Virus record (IMG/VR): IMGVR_UViG_3300018080_000419
Span: 1-32,565 of that record
Length of the DNA stretch: 32,565 nt
Direction: 5' to 3' (one strand)
Source: a virus
Below the pieces are notes generated by a model. That model was not told where the DNA came from, made no database searches, and worked only from the letters and a program-made list of their open reading frames with translations. The position numbers and the translations under genes were made by a program. Position 1 is the stretch's first letter; each line of letters opens with the position of its first letter. Shown here one piece after another: positions 2,477-31,603 of this stretch.

Positions 2477-2648
2477 ATAACCACACTCCTTGCTGTTCAA
2501 TAGTTTCAATACCAGGAAGTTCTGTGACATGAACAGCAATGATTCGAGAATCATCTAGTTCAATCACACATCTTTCCTCATTGTTAAAAGCCAGCATTAA
2601 CAATTTCAAGTCATCTGGATGAAGTTGTTTAACGATTTGGTTAATCAT
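2430..2648 (-). CDS. Small unknown protein coupled to the primase-helicase
   Basis: 72 aa from the ATG at 2648, whose GGAGGAGG ribosome site lies inside the last codons of the primase-helicase gene; the two overlap by 8 bases. Residues DDSRIIAVHV mid-protein and NDSRIIA at the C-terminus repeat the same peptide with different Ser and Arg codons. No domain recognised. Its 3' end overlaps the next gene by 47 bases, so the true C-terminus should be treated with caution. Confidence 0.65.
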   Translation of the reverse strand: MINQIVKQLHPDDLKLLMLAFNNEERCVIELDDSRIIAVHVTELPGIETIEQQGVWLYGKRISTTNDSRIIA

Positions 2649-5349
2649 TGATTGGTACCTCCTCCAAATACTTCTCACGAGAGACATACTTAAAGTCTTT
2701 TCTCTCTAAGTCAGTACCAACCCAACCAATATTACCAACATAAAACTGCATATCTTTGTGTCGTCGTCCTTTAGGATATTGTGGTGGTAAGGACTTACCT
2801 ACACGTTGCTTTGTCCACATCCTTGACTCATCTGGATCAACCCAATCAATGAATCGTTCATACAAATCACTGAACTTAATCATGTGACCATTGATGGGCA
2901 TACATTTTTCTTCAATGAATCGTTCAAGCGGTGTTTGATTCATTTCTTGAGCTAAGACTTTATCTTCTGTTTCAATGACAGGGATGTGGAGTCGATCATT
3001 AGATTCGGGAATCTCTAACCGAAGAACCTCAGCTATGAAGTCCGGTGCTTCTTTCTCCAACATATCCAATAGTCTTTTCTTAGGGATCAAGTCTAATGGT
3101 TCGAGAGGCTCAACATAACACATTGTGATTCGAGTATCCCCAGGGAATATTGGACACGCTTGATGATCATTAGCACACTGAACCCAATGTGTGGTGTTGG
3201 GTATGTGATACGGGGTTTCACCTTTCCTGTGTAAAAGAATCTCACGAGATGTAACCCAATCCTTAATCTTGTTGTATGCTGACGTATTCTTACGCAAATC
3301 TGTTTCTTCAATAATATTGAGAACTGTACCTTCAAGCTCAGCATTGAATCCAGATTGAGATGTGAGAGCAGCATCCGCTCGCTTGTATCCCGTAGTGAGA
3401 AGCACGCTTAATGCCTCATGGAAAATAGATTTACCACTATTCTGTGGGCCGTAGAAAAATAGAAATGGTAAAGGTTCTTCGGGTTCTTGGAAGAATGATG
3501 CTATCCAACACTTTAGATAATCCGCACCAGTGATAATACCATTGGCTCTACACCAAGCATTATGTTTTACCGTTTGATCAAGACCCGAACCACAATGCTT
3601 CAAAACTTTTTGCCAAGTACCATATTCTAAAGACTCAGTATTTTCTGATGGTGCAAATCTGATCTGTACAGCATTCCTATTCCAACGCCTGTTTCCTGGA
3701 TATTCTGGTTGGAAAGGTTTGTTTACAAGAATCCATGCTTTGAAGATTGATGATCCAACAATCACAGAACACTCTTTACTGGAATAACCCAACGATAAAA
3801 GTGCTTGTTTAATGTGGTTCAGTGGTTCACGCCTCCACATACCTTCGGACTTTATTGTCCACCCACAATCCTCGCCTTGTTCGGATACAATATGTCTGAT
3901 GATGTCATCATGGTTCGGGACTTCGGGTTCCACAGACTCAACAACACGAGTGTTATAGATACGTGTCCAAGGCTTATTACCTTTCGCAAGCCACCCTTGC
4001 ATATCTACATTGTCACCATCTTGCTTATCGATTTCGCAAATCAATCTACCGTCTTTGTGTTGTTTCAATACAGCTTGACGACCATTTAATGATGGATGAA
4101 AATTCAAAGATACACCAAGGAGTCGTGCAGCTTCAGAAGCAATCTCAGCTTCACGAAACATGAATCCACCTTTCGTATCTTCAATTCCGCCTTTGGCTCT
4201 ACATGCAGTTCTGAAATCGGGTTCCTTGTTAAAATAACATCTTGTCCAACCAGAGCCATCTTGATCCCAAGACGGGTGTTCATTTACACCACGCGTATAT
4301 CTACGCACACCCCACGCACCATTACGCAAGGGAAATAGAAAACAATTATAGTCTCCATGCTCTCGACCCTCAGATAGTGTTTCAAAATAACCACGACAAT
4401 TCAAATCTTCATGTGCTTTCTTGAGGTCTGAGGTGTGAGCCACGAGGAGATGATTATCTGTATCCCACCAACAGTTACCACCATGCTCACGCAGATAATT
4501 GAAAAGTTTCTTGTGTTCTTCATCTAATTGAATATGTGTACGTTGGCTACACAAATCTTCAAACTCGTCAACTTCTCTTTCTTCAATGTCACTATGTTTT
4601 ATGCGTCTTGAAGAACCTTTAATGACATTAAGATGGTCTTTCCAGTTTGTTGGAATTTCTGTTAAGACCTCACCTTCTTTGATAAGTTTCAATCCTTGTG
4701 TACCACGCATCTTACGATGCCATACCCACATGTTACTCCCGCATACGTCTACCTTGGATGCAAAATCAAAGCCAGTAATTGCGGATAGAGTTCCGAGGAT
4801 TGAACGTGCTAAAGCTGCGTGTTCACTGTGGTTTTCTGTAGGTACATTATCCACGAACACATAAAGATGTAATCCTTTACCAGATGTTGATTTGCGAATC
4901 GTCACCCACGACACATCATAAGCAGCTTTCTGAATTTCGTGTAATTCTTCACTAGTCAGCTTCTTGCCATGTTTATCTGAGTGTCCTGTGATAGCGTCAA
5001 AATCGAAAGCAACCCACTCACTAAGACGTTTCTCCCAATTCCAACCTGTCATACCGATAGCTTCAACGTGTTCAGCTAGGTCAAATTTGATTTCCGTATC
5101 ATTGAACTCTGGTTCTGACATGGCATTCCAAGGTATGCGAAATGATTTCCACGTCGTTATACCATCAGTCCAACCATTCCATTTTCGGCCACGGTAGTCA
5201 CCGTTAATACGCTCACCATTATCTTGGGCAACATTAACCTGGCACTCCATGCCATAGTGATATAGATTGGCCAAATCACTGTGAGTGGAATGATTTAAAA
5301 ATCTGGCAATAGCTTCTGTCTTTGTTGGCATTGGGATTTGATTCTCCAT
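2641..5349 (-). CDS. Primase-helicase: AEP-type primase fused to SF3 (D5-like) helicase
   Basis: 902 aa. The N-terminal half has archaeo-eukaryotic primase signatures: FDFD with metal-binding Asp116 and Asp118, then KSTSGKGLHLYVF with His161. The C-terminal half is a superfamily 3 helicase: Walker A GPQNSGKS (Lys640), acidic Walker B VLNIIEE, a sensor Asn in WVQCAND, and a likely arginine finger in GDTRI. Such proteins synthesise primers and unwind DNA at the fork. It heads the leftward operon, 50 bases from the promoter in the 32-bp repeat. Its ATG has no clear ribosome site (AAACAAG precedes it), so the start is somewhat uncertain. Domain assignment is firm; priming activity is inferred from the family. 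Confidence 0.92.
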   Translation of the reverse strand: MENQIPMPTKTEAIARFLNHSTHSDLANLYHYGMECQVNVAQDNGERINGDYRGRKWNGWTDGITTWKSFRIPWNAMSEPEFNDTEIKFDLAEHVEAIGMTGWNWEKRLSEWVAFDFDAITGHSDKHGKKLTSEELHEIQKAAYDVSWVTIRKSTSGKGLHLYVFVDNVPTENHSEHAALARSILGTLSAITGFDFASKVDVCGSNMWVWHRKMRGTQGLKLIKEGEVLTEIPTNWKDHLNVIKGSSRRIKHSDIEEREVDEFEDLCSQRTHIQLDEEHKKLFNYLREHGGNCWWDTDNHLLVAHTSDLKKAHEDLNCRGYFETLSEGREHGDYNCFLFPLRNGAWGVRRYTRGVNEHPSWDQDGSGWTRCYFNKEPDFRTACRAKGGIEDTKGGFMFREAEIASEAARLLGVSLNFHPSLNGRQAVLKQHKDGRLICEIDKQDGDNVDMQGWLAKGNKPWTRIYNTRVVESVEPEVPNHDDIIRHIVSEQGEDCGWTIKSEGMWRREPLNHIKQALLSLGYSSKECSVIVGSSIFKAWILVNKPFQPEYPGNRRWNRNAVQIRFAPSENTESLEYGTWQKVLKHCGSGLDQTVKHNAWCRANGIITGADYLKCWIASFFQEPEEPLPFLFFYGPQNSGKSIFHEALSVLLTTGYKRADAALTSQSGFNAELEGTVLNIIEETDLRKNTSAYNKIKDWVTSREILLHRKGETPYHIPNTTHWVQCANDHQACPIFPGDTRITMCYVEPLEPLDLIPKKRLLDMLEKEAPDFIAEVLRLEIPESNDRLHIPVIETEDKVLAQEMNQTPLERFIEEKCMPINGHMIKFSDLYERFIDWVDPDESRMWTKQRVGKSLPPQYPKGRRHKDMQFYVGNIGWVGTDLERKDFKYVSREKYLEEVPIND

Positions 5350-5784: not shown

Positions 5785-6849
5785 ATGTCAGAAGAACAAG
5801 CACCCCAGGTTGAGGAGACCGAAGCTGTGGATGTTACCGCCCCGAAACACAAAGTTCAAGAAATCCCTTTGGCAGAGATTCGGGAAAATCCGAAAGCCCT
5901 GCGCGATGTGGATAAGGAAACCGAAAGCTATCAAGCGATGGTTGATTCCGTTCGGGATCGCGGTATCTTGAATCCGGTTGTTGTTCGCAAGTCCAAAGAT
6001 GAAGATACGGGAGAGAAATTCTTCCAGCTTGTTGATGGTTTGCATCGTGTTACCAGCGCCCGTGATGCTGGTCTTACCACTGTTCCTGCGAATGTGATTG
6101 CTGCATCTGATGAAGAAGTTCTCGAACTTCAGATCATCGGGAATATTCACAAGGTCGAAACCAAACCCCACCAGTACGCGACTCAGCTGAAACGCATCAT
6201 GGGTCTCCGTCCCTTGATGACCATGAGTGAGATGGCGCGTAAGGTCAATCAGTCTGAGCAGTGGGTTCGGAATCGTCTTTCGCTCGTCAAGATCAAGAAT
6301 CCGAAAATTGCCGACGCTGTTGACAATGGTCAGATTCCGCTGGCGAATGCTTATGCCCTCACCAAACTGCCGGAAGAAGAACAAGTGGCCTTCATGGATA
6401 TGGCCATCACCGAACCAGCTGAGAAGTTTGTTGATATCATCAACGAACGAGCAAAAGAAATTCGTGATGCCAATCGTTCTGGCCAAAACTCAAAGCGTGA
6501 GTTCAAACCCGTTGCCTTCATGCGCAAGATGACAGAAGTCAAGAAAGAAGCTGGCATGATTGACGGTGAGAAGGGCGGCGAAGCTGCCAAGGCTCTTATT
6601 AAGGAACTCAAGATCGAGTCTCCTGAACAGGCCGCCGCAACTATGGTCAAATGGATGCTTCATCTGGATGATCTTTCCGTTGATTCCCAACGTGTAGAGT
6701 GGGAAGCTAACGAGAAAGAAAAGGCTGAACGTTCCGCTCGCCGCAAGGCACAGCGTGAAGCTGACAAAGCCAAGAAGAAGGCTGAAGAAGCTGAAGCCGC
6801 CAAGAAAGCTCAGGCTGAAGCTGAAGCTGAATTGGCCAATTTGGGTTAA
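5785..6849 (+). CDS. ParB/Spo0J-like DNA-binding protein
   Basis: 354 aa. Residues 23-110 form a ParB N-terminal domain with the nucleotide-binding box DGLHRVTSARDAG (84-96), followed by the NIHKVETKPHQYA segment in place of the usual ENxQR box, and a helix-turn-helix around 145-170 (MSEMARKVNQSEQWVRNRLS). The C-terminal 50 residues are an Ala/Glu/Lys-rich predicted coiled coil, different from the usual ParB dimer domain. ParB proteins bind palindromic parS sites and clamp DNA with CTP; phage homologues may instead act in gene control. ATG 5785 follows AAGGAG by 8 bases and a 155-base leader from P2. No ParA is seen in the window. A second ParB-like protein is at 11058. Confidence 0.88.
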   Translation: MSEEQAPQVEETEAVDVTAPKHKVQEIPLAEIRENPKALRDVDKETESYQAMVDSVRDRGILNPVVVRKSKDEDTGEKFFQLVDGLHRVTSARDAGLTTVPANVIAASDEEVLELQIIGNIHKVETKPHQYATQLKRIMGLRPLMTMSEMARKVNQSEQWVRNRLSLVKIKNPKIADAVDNGQIPLANAYALTKLPEEEQVAFMDMAITEPAEKFVDIINERAKEIRDANRSGQNSKREFKPVAFMRKMTEVKKEAGMIDGEKGGEAAKALIKELKIESPEQAAATMVKWMLHLDDLSVDSQRVEWEANEKEKAERSARRKAQREADKAKKKAEEAEAAKKAQAEAEAELANLG

Positions 6850-10893: not shown

Positions 10894-11065
10894 TGCACAT
10901 CCAGATCATGGAAAGTGTGTATTGCATTTTGCTTGTACTTGTAACAAAAACTTGTGGCAAGTTCGTGGGAGAGAAATTACATGTTCTAGGTGTGAAAGAG
11001 TTTGGTATGCACCAACTCTTGATGAAGGAAACGAAGCAATATTAAAGGAAAAGAAAAATGACTGA
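10862..11065 (+). CDS. Small zinc-ribbon-like protein
   Basis: 67 aa. Four Cys/His candidates (CVLHFACTC, then CSRCERVW) fit a compact zinc ribbon, a common nucleic-acid-binding element in phage replication operons. It overlaps the helicase end by 32 bases and its last codons overlap the next ParB-like gene by 8, so all three are probably translated together. GGAGA lies about 11 bases before the ATG, a little far. Function not known. Confidence 0.65.
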   Translation: MSKLITKKNDNAHPDHGKCVLHFACTCNKNLWQVRGREITCSRCERVWYAPTLDEGNEAILKEKKND

Positions 11066-11894
11066 ACAGACTCTTTTATCGGTTCCATTGAGTGAGATAC
11101 TTGCTGATGATCAATTTAACTGTCGTGGCAGGATTGACGCCTTTGACGTAGCAGACCTTGCTGAAGACATCAAGATGAATGGATTACTTCAGCCTGTTCT
11201 TCTAGGCCCGCTACCCAAAGACTTTGAGTTAGATGGTGTGAAGAAATATCGTCTGGTTGCAGGGTTTCGTCGTTTCCACGCACATCAAATTATTAAGGCT
11301 GAAAAGATTCGTGCAATCTTTGATGACTCAATGGGTGATGAAGTCAAGGCCAGATGTTTCAATCTGACAGAGAACATTCAACGTAAAGACTTGACTATTG
11401 TTCAAGAAGCCAAAGCGTTGTCCAAGCTGTATGAATTGGGGATTTCAGAGGTTGAAGCTGCTGAAAGATTAAACAAATCCCGTGGCTGGATTCAGATGCG
11501 TTACATGACGTTGAAACTTCCCGAGGACGTTCAAAAAGAGATACATGCTGGTGTGATTACACAATCACACATTCGAGATCTGTACACACGCTACATTAAG
11601 GGTGGAACAAAAGCATGTGTTGAGTCCGCGTTGGCTGTCAAGAAAGCCAAGGAGCGTGGAGAACGGGTTCCTTCGATCATCAACAAAGCAAAGAAGAACA
11701 AAGAAAGCAAGAAGCATCGTCGCCGGCCTGAGATATTTGATATGATGGATGCGATCCGAGATGGCGGGATTCCAAACTGTGAAATTCATCGCGCTCTTGC
11801 TTGGGCTGCAGGTGAAATTTCAACGGGTGAACTCTTCGAATCATTGAAAGAATATGCTGACAGAAACGGCTATGATTTCATGCCAATGTTGTAG
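11058..11894 (+). CDS. Second ParB/Spo0J-like protein
   Basis: 278 aa, closer to canonical ParB than the one at 5785. Residues 67-76 read VAGFRRFHAH (the GERRxxA nucleotide-binding box), 102-112 NLTENIQRKDL is the ENxQR box, and a helix-turn-helix follows at about 129-150 (ISEVEAAERLNKSRGWIQMR). A basic stretch KKNKESKKHRRR at about 214-225 could bind nucleic acid. The C-terminus is unlike known ParB dimer domains. It may bind parS-like sites such as the palindromes at 26655-26741. Phage ParB-like proteins can also be nucleases or regulators. It directly precedes the DNA polymerase gene. Confidence 0.9.
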   Translation: MTEQTLLSVPLSEILADDQFNCRGRIDAFDVADLAEDIKMNGLLQPVLLGPLPKDFELDGVKKYRLVAGFRRFHAHQIIKAEKIRAIFDDSMGDEVKARCFNLTENIQRKDLTIVQEAKALSKLYELGISEVEAAERLNKSRGWIQMRYMTLKLPEDVQKEIHAGVITQSHIRDLYTRYIKGGTKACVESALAVKKAKERGERVPSIINKAKKNKESKKHRRRPEIFDMMDAIRDGGIPNCEIHRALAWAAGEISTGELFESLKEYADRNGYDFMPML

Positions 11895-24353: not shown

Positions 24354-24592
24354 TTGTCTTAGTCTTATTGATGTGGTTGTTACTGTTTTATTTTGACCAC
24401 TTGCGTGTGATTTATCACATCAAGTGTAAACGAGGTGATGTCACTGTCCAATTAGCAGAGAAGAATGGTTCGTGGTATGTGATCTGTGATAAATATATTG
24501 TTTATTGTCACAGGTTTCGTGGTGCTAGTCGTTTCTATTGTTTCTGTCGGAGATTCGCTAAGAAGTTAAGGAGTCAATATGAATCTATATGA
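24335..24592 (+). CDS. Small membrane protein
   Basis: 85 aa with GAGG before ATG 24335 and an overlap of 19 bases with paralogue A. Residues 4-20 (RILIVLVLLMWLLLFYF) form a strong membrane segment; the rest is basic and Cys-rich (CKRG, ICDK, YCHRF, YCFCRRF), probably cytoplasmic. Its stop overlaps the DnaJ gene start by 14 bases. Function unknown. Confidence 0.7.
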   Translation: MAYRILIVLVLLMWLLLFYFDHLRVIYHIKCKRGDVTVQLAEKNGSWYVICDKYIVYCHRFRGASRFYCFCRRFAKKLRSQYESI

Positions 24593-25151
24593 TATATTAG
24601 GCGTGAGGCGGGACGCAACTGATTATGAAATCAAGAAGGCATTTATCAACAAATCCAAAGTATTGCATCCCGATGCGGGAGGTGGGCATGAAGAGTTCGT
24701 GGAGTTACAGAATGCATACACGATTTTGTCGGACCCACAGGAGCGGGCGTATTATGATCAACACGGTCGAACCAGGAACCAGAAACCTAGAGTTGAAGAG
24801 CTTGCCAAAATGTTACTGAATGAGATCGTGACCAAAGTGTTGCGAGTGGGTAATCATAATACGGATATAGTGTATCTGGCGACGCGTGAAACGGATCGAC
24901 GAATCGTGGAAATACAAAAAGGGATTCGTAAGTATGAGAAAGAGAGTGAGCAACTCAAGAAAATGCGCAGTCGTTGTCGTGGCGATGTGCTATTATCGGC
25001 CATCGATTCGCGGATCGAGGGACTTGAGACACAAATAACGGCAAAACGAAAGGAGGAGGCACTGGTTGAGGAGATTCGAAATATCGTTGATGAGTGTGAA
25101 TATGAATATGAAAAGATGGAGATGTATGATGAGTACGTCAAAATGGGATGA
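24579..25151 (+). CDS. J-domain (DnaJ-like) protein with long coiled coil
   Basis: 190 aa with AAGGAG 10 bases before ATG 24579. Residues 1-65 are a J domain with the HPD motif at 30-32 and YYDQHG at its end; HPD is needed to stimulate Hsp70 (DnaK). The rest has no Gly/Phe or zinc region but a long coiled coil (about 100-180), so it is not a general co-chaperone. It might direct host DnaK to a phage complex, as phage systems that use DnaJ/DnaK for replication or assembly do. It lies between two paralogues and two small membrane proteins. Confidence 0.88.
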   Translation: MNLYDILGVRRDATDYEIKKAFINKSKVLHPDAGGGHEEFVELQNAYTILSDPQERAYYDQHGRTRNQKPRVEELAKMLLNEIVTKVLRVGNHNTDIVYLATRETDRRIVEIQKGIRKYEKESEQLKKMRSRCRGDVLLSAIDSRIEGLETQITAKRKEEALVEEIRNIVDECEYEYEKMEMYDEYVKMG

Positions 25152-27801: not shown

Positions 27802-28797
27802 TTACTTTGCCTTGGCAAACACAGCGTTGTATTCTTCCGCCAACGCCAGATGCGGTTTCAGAGCGGAGACATCCTCTTCGCCCAGATCGATCTTCGCCAA
27901 TAGGCGAACGATCATGAGCGGAGATTGGTCACGGAGTCCTTCAACTCCGGATTTTGTCATCCGCGTGGTTGTGGTTTTTGCGTCGCCCTTCGGGTTCTTG
28001 GCAAAGGCTTTCACCTCCGCTTCGGTGGGAGTACCATCAAGAAGCTTCTTGATGTCTTCCTTGCCGAAAGGTGCGAGCTTCTGATCACCGGAGATGATGC
28101 TGTCAACGATTCCGACCTTCGGATACTCCGCATCAAGCTTCATCAATCGGTGCAACTTTTGCGCCATGCCGCGCTTGAACCCAGAGCGAACGAAGCCTGC
28201 TTCATTCACTCCAAGCTGGAACATTTCACGGGCTGCCCGTGCCATGTCAGCATCACCAAGACTACGGGACCCCGCAGTCTTCTTAAGGTTCTCACGCACA
28301 CACGCTTCAGCACGCTCCGCCGGAGTCATCTCTTCAATGGAAGCCGGAGCTTCCAAAATCGGAGGCAAGTCCAACATGGCGCGAACAGCATTCACACGAT
28401 GCATTACAGCATTCCGTCTGAATGAGTACACACCAGCATACTTCGGTGTGATGATTTTGCCGTTTTTCACGTTGAGCCGTTCCCATTCCTGCAAGATAAT
28501 ACTCGCAGGAACAGTTACTTCTCTCAACTTGCCGTCGTGCGTAACTTTGATCGTCATCGGGGTCAGGTCAGCTTTGAGCTGATCCCAGACACCGCTACGA
28601 TACTCAGCCAGCTTCTTGGCTTCGGCATCCTCGATTGGCGTAGCGCCTAACACACCCAGACCGACGTCCCAGCCGTTAAGCAGGTTATCAATCAAGGCAT
28701 TGCGATCCGCTTCATCTTTGAACAGGTTACCCGTTCGGGAAACGTTGTCATCAAGACGAAAGCAGACAGTACTCAGTGCAATTACTTGCAGACTCAT
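27802..28797 (-). CDS. Unknown protein, distantly ParB-like
   Basis: 331 aa from ATG 28797, with AAGGAG 8 bases upstream on the minus strand. The region AGVYSFRRNAVMHRVNAVRA followed by CVRENLKKTAGSRSLGDADM and a helical part (ARAAREMFQLGVNEAGF) recalls the FRR/ENxxR/helix-turn-helix order of ParB proteins, but the match is weak and I would not assign it. Higher G+C than the repeat-rich DNA around it. It is the largest gene of the minus-strand accessory block. Confidence 0.65.
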   Translation of the reverse strand: MSLQVIALSTVCFRLDDNVSRTGNLFKDEADRNALIDNLLNGWDVGLGVLGATPIEDAEAKKLAEYRSGVWDQLKADLTPMTIKVTHDGKLREVTVPASIILQEWERLNVKNGKIITPKYAGVYSFRRNAVMHRVNAVRAMLDLPPILEAPASIEEMTPAERAEACVRENLKKTAGSRSLGDADMARAAREMFQLGVNEAGFVRSGFKRGMAQKLHRLMKLDAEYPKVGIVDSIISGDQKLAPFGKEDIKKLLDGTPTEAEVKAFAKNPKGDAKTTTTRMTKSGVEGLRDQSPLMIVRLLAKIDLGEEDVSALKPHLALAEEYNAVFAKAK

Positions 28798-28808
28798 AAT
28801 CAATCTCC

Positions 28809-28982
28809 TTAGTGCCCAGTCTCAACGATAGGGCACAGGATGCGCTGACCATAAGCAGGAGTCGCCACACCCCAACAAGGCACGCCATCCGAAACATGGC
28901 GCAGATTGATTTCATAATCCGAACTTGTAAGCTGTTTCTGTTTTTTCAAAATCGGAGACTGGTCTCCAGTCTCCGTTGTCAT
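28809..28982 (-). CDS. Small protein with RHVSDGVPC motif
   Basis: 57 aa, MTTETGDQSPILKKQKQLTS and then SDYEINLRHVSDGVPCWGVA. The ATG at 28982 has only a weak site, and it overlaps the preceding gene by 71 bases; a TTG at about 28949 would shorten the overlap. The TAA is 11 bases before the start of the 331-aa gene. A stretch encoding RHVSDDVPC also lies, inverted, at 29113-29145 with mostly synonymous differences, which supports real coding. Function unknown. Confidence 0.5.
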   Translation of the reverse strand: MTTETGDQSPILKKQKQLTSSDYEINLRHVSDGVPCWGVATPAYGQRILCPIVETGH

Positions 28983-29091
28983 CTTGATACTCGATCAAGG
29001 TCTCCTCATCATTCTCCACCAGCGCATCGATGAGCATATGATAAATCATATACTCTTGTTTAACAACGTCAAAAACCCTGAAAGTGAACAT
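28912..29091 (-). CDS. Small acidic unknown protein
   Basis: 59 aa, MFTFRVFDVVKQEYMIYHML then an acidic stretch (ENDEETLIEYQDDNGDWRPV). ATG 29091 has CAGGAG 10 bases upstream on the minus strand. The compact strand-helix-strand look is that of a small regulatory or inhibitor protein, though no family is recognised. Confidence 0.6.
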   Translation of the reverse strand: MFTFRVFDVVKQEYMIYHMLIDALVENDEETLIEYQDDNGDWRPVSDFEKTETAYKFGL

Positions 29092-29272
29092 GGCACAGTA
29101 CTCCTGTGAGTTGTTGCGCCATGTCTCAGATGACGTGCCTTGCGCTGAGTACTCCGTACAATACTCAGTCTTCGTGCAATGTGCAGGCAGTCAGGCACAT
29201 GGTTCAGGTTATAGCTTTGAACACTTCATAAATTCGTACAAGGCATCAATAATTACTTTTGAAAGTGTCTGA
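29090..29272 (+). CDS. Possible small plus-strand gene related to the 57-aa protein
   Basis: 60 aa, MAQYSCELLRHVSDDVPCAE then YSVQYSV. The part RHVSDDVPC matches RHVSDGVPC of the minus-strand 57-aa protein, with differing bases nearly all in third codon positions, a coding-like pattern. It starts within a CATG shared with the minus-strand gene start and lacks a good ribosome site, and it overlaps the end of the 92-aa gene. Real gene, remnant of an inverted duplication, or chance: low confidence. Confidence 0.3.
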   Translation: MAQYSCELLRHVSDDVPCAEYSVQYSVFVQCAGSQAHGSGYSFEHFINSYKASIITFESV

Positions 29273-29522
29273 CCTTCAACAGGCAAGTCACGTTTACGGG
29301 TTTCTGTTAACAAGTTGAAGTCTGTGTCACGCCGATGACCGCAGATACCGCGGTATCGCCTTTCGTTGTGTCCTGCACGGACAGGTACTGAAAATCCACG
29401 TTCACGGATTACTGTATCCGTCCCAGGCTTCAACAGGCTATGTTTTGCATCATTGTACTTGATGATGGGCACTGTGGAGAGTTTCATATCATCGCCTCCT
29501 ATGTGCCTGACTGCCTGCACAT
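29179..29522. repeat. 22-bp perfect inverted repeat around the 92-aa gene
   Basis: ATGTGCAGGCAGTCAGGCAC followed by AT (29179-29200) is exactly complementary to 29501-29522. The arms lie 8 bases after the stop and 13 upstream of the start of the 92-aa gene, the right arm abutting its ribosome site. Invertible unit, transcript stem or remnant of a mobile cassette are all possible. Confidence 0.9.
29209..29487 (-). CDS. Unknown basic protein bracketed by inverted repeats
   Basis: 92 aa from ATG 29487, with AGGAGG 9 bases upstream on the minus strand. It is basic and rich in Arg (RERGFSVPVRAGHNERRYRG then CGHRR), with a helical C-terminus (SKVIIDALYEFMKC). It is the first gene after the minus-strand control region at 29523-29800. 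No family recognised; nucleic-acid binding is possible. Confidence 0.7.
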   Translation of the reverse strand: MKLSTVPIIKYNDAKHSLLKPGTDTVIRERGFSVPVRAGHNERRYRGICGHRRDTDFNLLTETRKRDLPVEGQTLSKVIIDALYEFMKCSKL

Positions 29523-29699
29523 CTTCTGGTTGGACTGGTGTCTTACTTCCAGAGTTCACCCAACTTTGACAGCCTGCTGGTGTTCTTACAAGAACTGACT
29601 ACTGAGCCGGATCTCCACATCCACAGGCTTTTGTATAAATTGTTGTCAGTTCGGGGATTGGCGCCGGGTGGCGCGTCCTCCGAAGGACAGCTATATATA

Positions 29700-29715
29700 G
29701 CAAGACCCATGCCAA
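29700..29715 (-). promoter_or_regulatory. Sigma54-like -24/-12 element M1, leftward
   Basis: On the minus strand TTGGCATGGGTCTTGCTATA: GG (29713-29712), 10 bases, GC (29701-29700), the fixed sigma54 spacing with TGGCAY and TTGC boxes. It lies directly beyond dyad R1 (29721-29747) and points to the 92-aa gene. Confidence 0.55.
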
Positions 29716-29720
29716 CTTTT

Positions 29721-29747
29721 GTAACCTGTTGACTTGCAACAGGTTAC
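29721..29747. repeat. Dyad R1, perfect palindrome
   Basis: GTAACCTGTTG-ACTTG-CAACAGGTTAC; with flanking bases, 13 pairs. It is the most regular of six related dyads and probably a binding site for a dimeric regulator or an RNA hairpin. Confidence 0.85.
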
Positions 29748-29787
29748 AACTCAAGTGAGTCACGCGCAGATGACTCATGCGTGTCTA

Positions 29788-29802
29788 GCAGATTTCGTGC
29801 CA
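29788..29802 (-). promoter_or_regulatory. Sigma54-like -24/-12 element M2, leftward
   Basis: Minus strand CTGGCACGAAATCTGCTA: GG (29801-29800), N10, GC (29789-29788). The best match of the four to the sigma54 consensus TGGCACG-N4-TTGC, downstream (leftward) of dyad R2 at 29815-29838. Confidence 0.55.
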
Positions 29803-29814
29803 GCTTGATGTGTT

Positions 29815-29944
29815 GTATCCCGTTGCGTTGCAACGTATTATGAATGTTTAGCTGGTTATAGTAGTATAGCAATACCACTTAAATACAAAAATGTACCGCG
29901 ACTATTGTAAATATTATGTAAGTGCTTGCAACGCAACGGGATAC
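29815..29944. repeat. Dyads R2 and R3, 19-bp perfect inverted pair
   Basis: GTATCCCGTTGCGTTGCAA at 29815-29833 is the exact reverse complement of 29926-29944. R3 is followed by TGGCACAAAAATGTATT, where the -24 GG is kept but the -12 GC has become TA, so it is a decayed or different element. Confidence 0.85.
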
Positions 29945-29987
29945 GTGGCACAAAAATGTATTGACGAAAGTACAATTTTGTGTCGCT

Positions 29988-30113
29988 ATAACCTGTTGCG
30001 TTGCAATGAGTTCTGGAGATTTTAGTATATTTTTAGAAGTTTTAGTCTAATAAATGTTAGGAAAGAATGAAGGATTTATTTTGTCTTGTGTTCTATAACC
30101 TGTTGTATTGCAA
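29988..30113. repeat. Dyads R4 and R5, direct repeats
   Basis: ATAACCTGTTGCGTTGCAA (29988-30006) and ATAACCTGTTGTATTGCAA (30095-30113) match at 17 of 19 positions. Both have a TTGTGT word a few bases to their left, as does R6, so the conserved unit is longer than the dyad. Confidence 0.85.
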
Positions 30114-30139
30114 GCACTTGTAACTTTTTCGTTGAATAT

Positions 30140-30154
30140 TGGTACGAAACCTGC
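30140..30154 (+). promoter_or_regulatory. Sigma54-like -24/-12 element M5, rightward
   Basis: TTGGTACGAAACCTGCTAA: GG 30141-30142, N10, GC 30153-30154. One base departs from the TGGCAC box. Points to the gene at 30341. Confidence 0.5.
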
Positions 30155-30186
30155 TAACGCGGATGAAACGGTCAAAATCTTGTGTC

Positions 30187-30230
30187 GGAACCTGTTGCAA
30201 CGCAACGGGTTACGTTGGCATGAAACTTGC
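30187..30230 (+). promoter_or_regulatory. Dyad R6 abutting sigma54-like element M6, rightward
   Basis: R6 is AACCTGTTGCAACGCAACGG then GTT; it is followed at once by GTTGGCATGAAACTTGCTAT with GG 30217-30218, N10, GC 30229-30230. The expected start is about 30242, giving the gene at 30341 a leader of about 100 bases. Confidence 0.55.
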
Positions 30231-30366
30231 TATATGCGTGTATGTTCACCTTTCACCATATCACGAAAATCCTAAAAGCGACAACTTGGAGGCTTGTCGC
30301 AGATGTCGCGAAAAGTACAATAGTAACAATGGGAGTAATAATGATGAAAAAACTAATTTGGCTTGA
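30220..30366 (+). CDS. Possible small HNH/zinc-finger-like ORF
   Basis: 48 aa from ATG 30220. The stretch HLSPYHENPKSDNLEACRRC then REKYN resembles the end of HNH-type zinc fingers (H...NP..DNL..C..C), but lacks the first Cys pair and the final His. The ATG lies inside the proposed promoter M6 and has no ribosome site, so a start further on or a dead remnant is likely. The end overlaps the gene at 30341. Confidence 0.35.
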   Translation: MKLAICVYVHLSPYHENPKSDNLEACRRCREKYNSNNGSNNDEKTNLA

Positions 30367-30655
30367 AAGTGTTGGCGTGGATAAATTATACATTGATAAC
30401 CATATTCCAATAAAGCATGTAGATACCATTTTACTTGCTTTGAAACATCAGCTTGAAAGACTCGATGATCCTGAATTTAATGAAATGCCAGTAAATCGAA
30501 AAATGGCAATAATGCACCATATACTTGTTTGGAGTGAAGAAGTCGAAACGATTGCAAAGCGAAAGTTTGACGAATTGCGTGCAACTCCAGAATATGCCAA
30601 GTATTATGAAAGAAAAGTAAGAGAACATAAAGACATCCTGCGCGATAAGGCGTAA
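30341..30655 (+). CDS. Unknown helical protein
   Basis: 104 aa from ATG 30341 (GGGAG 5 bases upstream; a second ATG at 30344 has better spacing). Mostly helical, with LLALKHQLERLDDPEF and a basic C-terminal end YYERKVREHKDILRDKA. It is the only gene between the palindromic control region and its terminator, so it may be a regulator of that region; nothing in the sequence is a known DNA-binding motif. Function unknown. Confidence 0.75.
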   Translation: MMKKLIWLESVGVDKLYIDNHIPIKHVDTILLALKHQLERLDDPEFNEMPVNRKMAIMHHILVWSEEVETIAKRKFDELRATPEYAKYYERKVREHKDILRDKA

Positions 30656-30666
30656 AAGAACAAAGG

Positions 30667-30709
30667 ACACAAAAAGTACGTTATATACAAAATAACGTGC
30701 TTTTTGTGT
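30667..30709. terminator. Long A/T-rich hairpin terminator
   Basis: ACACAAAAAGTACGTTAT (30667-30684) pairs with ATAACGTGCTTTTTGTGT (30692-30709) over 18 positions including one U-G, loop of 7. The stem has T5 on one side and A5 on the other, so it can act in either direction. Confidence 0.7.
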
Positions 30710-30987
30710 GGTGGGGTTATTTCTAATAGATAAATGCTAACTTTTTGTAGTATGTCCCCACTTCTGAACCCCGAACCGCAGACCACGCAACTTTTAGTTT
30801 TAATACAATCACGAACCCCGAACCGCAGACCTCGCAACTTTTATATCGCAACTTTTAGTTTTACACGAACTGCAGACATTTATCATCAACACAACAAAGG
30901 GTTGTGGGGTTAAATGACCAATAATAGATAAAGTCAATCAAGTATACTGGACTTGAACCTTGGACAAAAAATCTAATTTCAAGTTCT
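30710..30987. other. Non-coding stretch before the structural block
   Basis: No gene seen. It holds the direct repeats listed separately, ACAACAAAGGGTTGT near 30890-30905 that can form a small hairpin, and leads into P3. Confidence 0.7.
30766..30880. repeat. Direct repeats with GAACCCCGAACCGCAGACC
   Basis: GAACCCCGAACCGCAGACC followed by A/TCGCAACTTTT occurs at 30766 and 30813 (offset 47), then a partial copy (CGCAACTTTTAGTTTTA) ending in CACGAACTGCAGAC near 30865. The word is the complement of GGTTCGGGGTT found elsewhere. Confidence 0.85.
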
Positions 30988-31027
30988 ATGCAAGTTTTCC
31001 GTTTTCTGGCCGTTATACAGTATGGAG
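30988..31027 (+). promoter_or_regulatory. Candidate phage promoter P3 before the structural block
   Basis: ATGCAAGTTTT, 11 bases, CCGTTATACAGTAT, then GGAGAG. It agrees with P2 at 30 of 36 positions with no gaps and with P1 in the GGAGAG that follows. It stands 50 bases before the ATG of the terminase-like gene. Confidence 0.65.
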
Positions 31028-31075
31028 AGACATGATTCAAAAAATCTGGACAAAATAATCCGACCGGAGTATGAT

Positions 31076-31603
31076 ATGTCAGAGGCAGTATTAAAAAGAG
31101 CTGAGCCGGATTCACCAAATCGGTGTCAGGCCACAGGACGCGAAGGACAATGTCCCTATCTCGCGGTTCCTGGTGGAACTGTGTGTCAACGGCATGGCGG
31201 AAACAAAGTCGAAGCTTCACAGGAAGCACAGGCGTTGCGTAATTATCGTTTTACAAAGTATCGCGAGCGTATAAACGAGAAGGCGGATTCCCCGAAACTC
31301 AAACTTCTTAACGAGGAGATTGGTGTTTTGAGGATGAGCCTCGAATCCATAGTCAATACTTGTCAAGACGATAATGACTTGATTCGTAACTCTGGCCCCA
31401 TTGCTTCACTGATTCGACAAATCGAGATGACAGTACAATCCTGTGATAAGCTCGAACGAAATATGGGGCGCCATTTTGATAAGCAACAATTGATACAATT
31501 TGCTGCTGAAATCGTCACGATTGCTGGGGACGTTTTTGCTGGCGAAGATGACAAGCTCGCAGAGTTTGGTGACAAGATCCTCGAAACAATTACCTTTAGC
31601 TAG
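31076..31603 (+). CDS. Terminase small-subunit-like protein with N-terminal zinc motif
   Basis: 175 aa from ATG 31076 (GGAG 6 bases upstream). An earlier ATG at 31022 falls inside P3 and is unlikely. The N-terminus has RCQATG, GQCPYLAVPG and VCQRHGGNK, a C...C...C..HGG zinc motif that I associate with small terminases and other phage DNA-binding proteins. The helical remainder (LLNEEIGVLRMSLESIVNTC, then LIRQIEMTVQSCDKLE) ends in an acidic tail. It would recognise the packaging site and recruit a large subunit, which must lie outside the window. The family call is moderate. Confidence 0.6.
   Translation: MSEAVLKRAEPDSPNRCQATGREGQCPYLAVPGGTVCQRHGGNKVEASQEAQALRNYRFTKYRERINEKADSPKLKLLNEEIGVLRMSLESIVNTCQDDNDLIRNSGPIASLIRQIEMTVQSCDKLERNMGRHFDKQQLIQFAAEIVTIAGDVFAGEDDKLAEFGDKILETITFS

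Follow-up and report, generated by a model that had tools for sequence, protein, structure and literature searches.

Within one 530-bp intergenic region (29.70-30.23 kb) of an uncultivated phage, four elements of the sigma54 (-24/-12) type are found, with a minus-strand pair at the left end and a plus-strand pair at the right end, all four facing outward. The whole stretch of DNA that was analyzed, referred to here as the window, is a complete IMG/VR record and consists of a linear fragment of 32,565 bases. Judging from their sequence, we propose that the elements are most likely genuine binding sites for the host sigma54-RNA polymerase, and that transcription from them would be divergent, probably late, and controlled by a phage-specific regulator that binds dyads in the same region. 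The joint scheme, in which promoter pairs read by host RpoN, six dyad operators and a host activator would together form a divergent control region, appears rather probable to us, although with considerable room for doubt.

In all four elements the GG and GC boxes show the exact GG-N10-GC spacing, inside the extended consensus TGGCAYR-N4-YTGCW (Table 1). The first-pass annotation had listed four such outward-pointing elements, and all of its 15-mers are present as written, so that the four-element observation in the window is real. Scored with an approximate sigma54 matrix, pA to pD reach 16.4-19.4, and nowhere else in the window is a score of 14 or more attained. The consensus pattern occurred on average 0.65 times in whole-window shuffles, with four sites reached in two of 100 shuffles, and windows simulated with a Markov-1 model contained a mean of 0.18 sites (maximum, 1) scoring at least 16. 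At the rate found in 1.83 Mb of relatives' DNA, which itself includes true sites, 0.006 sites would be expected in 530 bp (P ~6e-11). Given that the pattern was picked post hoc from the sites, these chance figures are flattering for the window, and the independent support is therefore that given by the relatives.

The four promoters are also not independent events, because one outer module (29695-29755) is an inverted duplicate of the other (30179-30235). Between these modules, the promoter boxes of pA and pD differ only in the N4 spacer (GGTC versus AAAC), and the distance from dyad to promoter differs by 4 bp. The four-base spacer is not read by sigma54, and differences restricted to it are therefore the pattern expected if the two boxes, and not the spacer, are under selection. 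We also considered a sigma70 reading, as an extended -10-like sequence, TGCTATAT, is found at pA and pD. This was rejected because the sequence is absent from pB and pC and the GG box would be left unexplained; the sigma70 scan gave 10 sites versus 5.5 expected.

Table 1. Features of the control region and of the flanking genes (positions in the window)
Feature	Positions	Strand	Sequence or basis	Remark
pA, sigma54-type promoter (predicted)	29700..29714	-	TGGCATGGGTCTTGC, TGGCATG-GGTC-TTGC	predicted start ~29688
pB, sigma54-type promoter (predicted)	29788..29802	-	TGGCACGAAATCTGC, TGGCACG-AAAT-CTGC	predicted start ~29776
pC, sigma54-type promoter (predicted)	30140..30154	+	TGGTACGAAACCTGC, TGGTACG-AAAC-CTGC	predicted start ~30166
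pD, sigma54-type promoter (predicted)	30216..30230	+	TGGCATGAAACTTGC, TGGCATG-AAAC-TTGC	predicted start ~30242
Dyad A	29721..29749	+	near-perfect palindrome	upstream of pA
Dyad B	29813..29841	+	half conserved	upstream of pB
Dyad E	29918..29946	-		central
Dyad F	29987..30015	+		central
Dyad C	30094..30122	+		upstream of pC
Dyad D	30187..30215	-	near-perfect palindrome	upstream of pD
331-aa protein, predicted ParB/Noc/KorB N-domain fold	27802..28797	-	structure model	
59-aa ORF	28912..29091	-	has ribosome-binding site	
92-aa ORF	29209..29487	-	AGGAGG ahead of ATG; no family match	first gene of leftward operon
104-aa ORF	30341..30655	+		first gene of rightward operon
193-aa conserved protein, likely small terminase subunit	31022..31603	+	gene order in relatives	

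With the primase (window 2641-5349) as the query, more than 100 related contigs were obtained, and a small-terminase profile gave 80 loci. We counted TGG[CT]A-Nk-TGC in 59 non-duplicate regions of up to 2.5 kb upstream of the terminase gene, that of the window included, and found 38 occurrences at k=7, which corresponds to the sigma54 spacing, versus 2-19 at any other k. The relatives' other intergenic DNA, with the window excluded, showed 31 occurrences at k=7 versus 1-13 elsewhere. The intergenic DNA of the relatives thus has a single Nk peak, at the sigma54 spacing, whereas their coding DNA has little peak (150 at k=7 and up to 182 at other k). This spacing test, in which the sigma54 matrix is not used, is the strongest independent support for the sigma54 reading. 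The earlier view of the elements as sigma54-type promoters is accordingly backed by spacing, consensus and recurrence in relatives, and its expectation of conserved spacing also held: the dyad sequence varies from phage to phage, and the GG-N10-GC spacing stays.

Strong sigma54-type sites were found in 13 of about 58 relatives, many of them as divergent pairs, and most relatives are without them. In four relatives (L205, L158, L155 and L160), ribosome-bound ORFs lie 20-80 bases downstream of the sites, and in L213 nine copies of TAAGGACTTA, a repeated dyad of its own, adjoin a divergent pair. The Planctomycetota phages or prophages that carry the primase (G046 and G153) showed no strong sites near the primase or terminase, which indicates that the trait is not universal in the phage family. 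Searches by DNA, polymerase or terminase region returned no named phage relatives, and only weak primase-domain matches. In another relative (L138, G018), an inverted repeat with arms of more than 40 bases lies beside a sigma54-type pair, ~1,130-1,330 bases upstream of the terminase gene.

Sigma54 transcription strictly requires an ATP-driven activator, and its usual targets are nitrogen, motility and stress genes. The first-pass annotation had suggested a switch that depends on an enhancer-binding protein (EBP), and a dedicated one did not emerge: neither the window nor 63 other family records, which are fragments, contained the sigma54 activator domain PF00158 at a score above the cut-off, and the same search matched in all 14 control genomes. 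Any activator would thus have to be supplied by the host or encoded in phage DNA that lies beyond the sequenced part. A search for the GAFTGA motif gave no match, with the host control equally empty, and no HMM match to a phage-encoded RpoN was obtained in the loci examined.

Three bacterial bins, two from Planctomycetota and one from Anaerolinea, contain relatives of the primase, and each of them encodes RpoN. The presence of rpoN, on which the annotation had made its reading depend, is thus established for the bins that hold relatives. One relative is integrated in the DNA of a Planctomycetota bin, where a 444-kb contig carries the phage primase and terminase as well as ATP synthase and AcrB genes, and another primase relative, with an integrase and a ParB gene, is found inside a closed Planctomycetota chromosome. 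These locations suggest that Planctomycetota is a likely host group of the phage family. When Planctomycetota genomes were scanned for TGGCAYGNNNNYTGCTA, the 24 matches were fewer than those of the reversed-pattern control, a result that carries little information because these genomes are mostly coding and GC-rich. In Planctomycetia, chaperones and proteases are reported to be enriched among predicted sigma54 targets (PMC12316311). This makes a link to host stress plausible, in our analysis at least as much as the link to nutrient state that had been raised before. A Wadjet JetD-like gene (L264 16393-17724; G046 contig 1, ~96-98 kb) is located on the same Planctomycetota contig as a phage relative.

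The control region, the center of which is A+T-rich (35% GC), also contains six copies of a 19-bp dyad-like element with the consensus [GA]TA[AT]CC[CT]GTTGNNTTGCAA, and the element is confined to this region, since the six copies score at least 31.7 and the rest of the window at most 13.5. Six palindromes had been claimed originally: the number of copies stands, but near-complete palindromes are limited to dyads A and D, and the other four copies keep one half and the inner TTGCAA. Measured from each predicted start, the dyad centers lie at -41 to -58, -134 to -165 and -225 to -244, so that the placement of dyads beside the promoters is borne out by position. For all four promoters, the copies at -134 to -165 are within the enhancer (UAS) range of ~80-200 bases upstream.

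It is possible, if unlikely, that a host bEBP uses the dyads as its enhancers and that the switch senses a host condition. The two more distant sets of dyads lie at typical enhancer distances, and a phage activator was not found. However, the dyad that every promoter also has at -41 to -58 is nearer than a usual enhancer and suits a repressor equally. In addition, the dyads differ between phages, to which a phage-encoded binder fits at least equally well, and they show no match to a host EBP motif. The dyad sequence of the window is carried by none of the relatives, and its binder is therefore not traceable by conservation. A scan across viral contigs for the window dyad together with the promoter pattern also gave no match.

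Among 2.9 million viral contigs, the back-to-back pattern GCAANNNNCRTGCCA-N10-40-TGGCAYGNNNNYTGCW was found in at least 120 stretches, versus none when the same pattern was given five-base spacers. The matches are diverse, and no locus has the window's primase, polymerase or terminase. Many of the loci contain arrays in which up to 13 elements face in both directions, often at intervals of 19-28 or ~47 bases (examples in the unrelated contigs L269-L451 are L283:7081-7300, L367:1778-2130 and L302:3562-3780), and several adjoin large terminase genes. Convergent pairs are also common, in arrays with 18-22-base offsets; therefore, divergent-only orientation was rejected as proof of promoters. Neither these pairs nor the dense arrays have the appearance of simple promoters. 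In L273, L274, L321 and L348, several divergent sigma54-type pairs of one phage share an inner dyad, CCGAnCCGGTTCGG, inside a constant 26-base gap.

These arrays bear on the main rival explanation, which we regard as unlikely, namely that the host sigma54-polymerase binds without firing, so that closed complexes repress or act as roadblocks, or phage DNA titrates sigma54 from host stress genes. Consistent with this, neither the 64 family records nor the 50 array-bearing ones yielded an activator gene, except for one doubtful match in the second set, and in unrelated phages the elements are often too close for simultaneous promoter use. However, the four sites of the window all face operons and are too few for titration unless the copy number is high, and the ORFs just downstream of the sites in four relatives also argue for firing. 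Repression or titration by unactivated holoenzyme suits the dense arrays more than it does the window. As for phages in general, we see about even chances that control regions made from Esigma54 sites (pairs to dozen-element arrays), often near packaging genes and with no activator of the phage's own, arose independently in many unrelated tailed phages. Such phages would thereby couple late transcription to host EBPs, or repress with or titrate unactivated Esigma54.

In the window, the control region lies between two operons: the leftward one encodes a ParB/KorB-fold protein, and the rightward one extends as far as the small terminase gene. In the relatives, large terminase and portal genes lie directly 3' of the homologue of the 193-aa protein, which from this gene order is probably the small terminase. 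The three leftward ORFs are preceded by good ribosome-binding sites, and the nearest regulator-like gene to the control region is that of the ParB/KorB-fold protein and not an EBP. This 331-aa protein had no match in Pfam or PHROGs. Its distant homologues in relatives do reach PHROGs ParB (1e-5), but the A3-A4 profile similarity was not significant. When its AlphaFold model (pLDDT 75.5, from an alignment of five sequences) was searched with Foldseek, the only good matches were ParB, Noc and KorB structures (best E 6e-5). In VIA, the model showed a Z of 9.4 to 7bm8 (rmsd 2.4 over 98 residues), and Z exceeded 6 for ParB-family rows only. A ParB N-domain fold is thus supported by the model. We also considered whether a ParB-like gene is tied to phages with sigma54-type sites only, and rejected this, as ParB-like genes divergent from the terminase occur in several relatives with or without such sites. 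Two further ParB-domain proteins are encoded in the window (5785-6849 and 11058-11894), which gives at least three ParB-fold genes in the phage, and a DnaJ-domain protein is encoded at 24579-25151.

KorB is a repressor that acts from operators. The arrangement in the window resembles the KorB/ParB operator systems (RK2 KorB, Noc and ParB-parS) in that a ParB-fold gene stands beside repeated palindromes in a divergent control region. It differs from them in the pairing with sigma54-type promoters and in the 331-aa protein itself, which has an insertion in the N-domain, is no more than ~23% identical to its distant relatives and is a putative binder of the dyads. One might also suppose that the clustered dyads serve in partition (as a parS-like site) or in replication (as an origin) and that the promoter-like boxes are largely unrelated to it. 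The adjacent ParB-fold gene, the two other ParB-domain genes and the A+T-rich center are in line with this idea, but it leaves unexplained both the four exact sigma54 boxes and their conservation in relatives without this dyad, and we consider it improbable.

In the divergent-promoter scheme that we favor, host RpoN-RNA polymerase would recognize and occupy the four sites, one pair of which would drive the leftward operon, ending in the ParB/KorB-like protein, and the other the rightward operon, toward the packaging genes. The six dyads would be operators of a phage-specific regulator, for which the ParB/KorB-like protein is the best candidate, by autoregulation. Bound to the dyads, this regulator would set the balance between the two operons, and an ATPase activator supplied by the host would fire the promoters.

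We also constructed a matrix of 1,076 elements from other phages; its TGG, A and TGC columns were predetermined by the search pattern, and only the remaining columns are informative. The matrix agrees with the sigma54 consensus used for comparison (mrNrYTGGCACG-N4-TTGCW), including the weak flanking positions, and N4 is nearly free. Among cultured phages, Pseudomonas phage vB_Pae_Kat (ON361135, L494/L495; Pakpunavirus, host PAO1) has seven sites scoring at least 16 in two clusters, at 45.2-45.9 kb, in the 45.1-46.1 kb stretch, and at 57.5-57.6 kb (simulation mean 0.15, maximum 2), and five lie in the right 48 kb of Vibrio phage D419 (simulation mean 0.05); there are none in Brevundimonas phage StAshley, which was chosen by its portal protein. 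That the TGGCAYG-N4-YTGC elements are read by a phage protein and resemble sigma54 sites only superficially is very unlikely: the convergent array pairs with their 18-22-base offsets do resemble large palindromic binding sites, but the agreement extends to weak positions with N4 free, and the element is common to phages without the window's primase, polymerase and terminase and is present in both Pseudomonas and Vibrio phages. In the genome paper of phage PaP1, promoters were predicted by a neural network, and sigma54 is unmentioned (PMC3652863).

The published sigma54 consensus is TGGCAC-N5-7-TTGCT (quoted in PMC12316311). The elements are like bacterial sigma54 (RpoN) -24/-12 promoters in their boxes, fixed 10-base GG-GC spacing and extended consensus, and unlike them in lying in a phage control region, as divergent pairs and with no recognized phage activator gene, and in forming dense arrays in other phages. 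The phage shock response (PspF, sigma54) also joins sigma54 with phage infection, but its promoters are in the host genome and not in the phage. Similarly, genes of the Salmonella Gifsy-1 prophage influence a sigma54-dependent host operon (RpoN/RtcR; PMC9879122). In that case, too, the sigma54 promoter belongs to the host. No phage proven to use sigma54 for its own genes was found in the open-access literature (subscription journals were outside the search), and we know of none. The signal in the window phage, its relatives, unrelated arrays and one cultured Pseudomonas phage suggests that many phages use a host system so far unlinked to phage gene control. If this is true, then phage development in many environments would hinge on host activators, and host physiology would have a direct route to gate phage late genes. 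The sigma54 finding would also account for a feature seen in the intergenic DNA of this large uncultivated family of phages.

Several other repeats were observed close to the control region. A perfect 22-base inverted repeat, ATGTGCAGGCAGTCAGGCACAT, is found at 29179-29200 and 29501-29522, on either side of the 92-aa ORF. Downstream of the 104-aa ORF and ahead of the terminase gene there is a long near-perfect hairpin (ACACAAAAAGTACGTTAT..ATAACGTGCTTTTTGTGT, 30667-30709), possibly a bidirectional terminator, and a direct repeat, GAACCCCGAACCGCAGACCnCGCAACTTTTA, is located at 30766-30843, upstream of the terminase gene.
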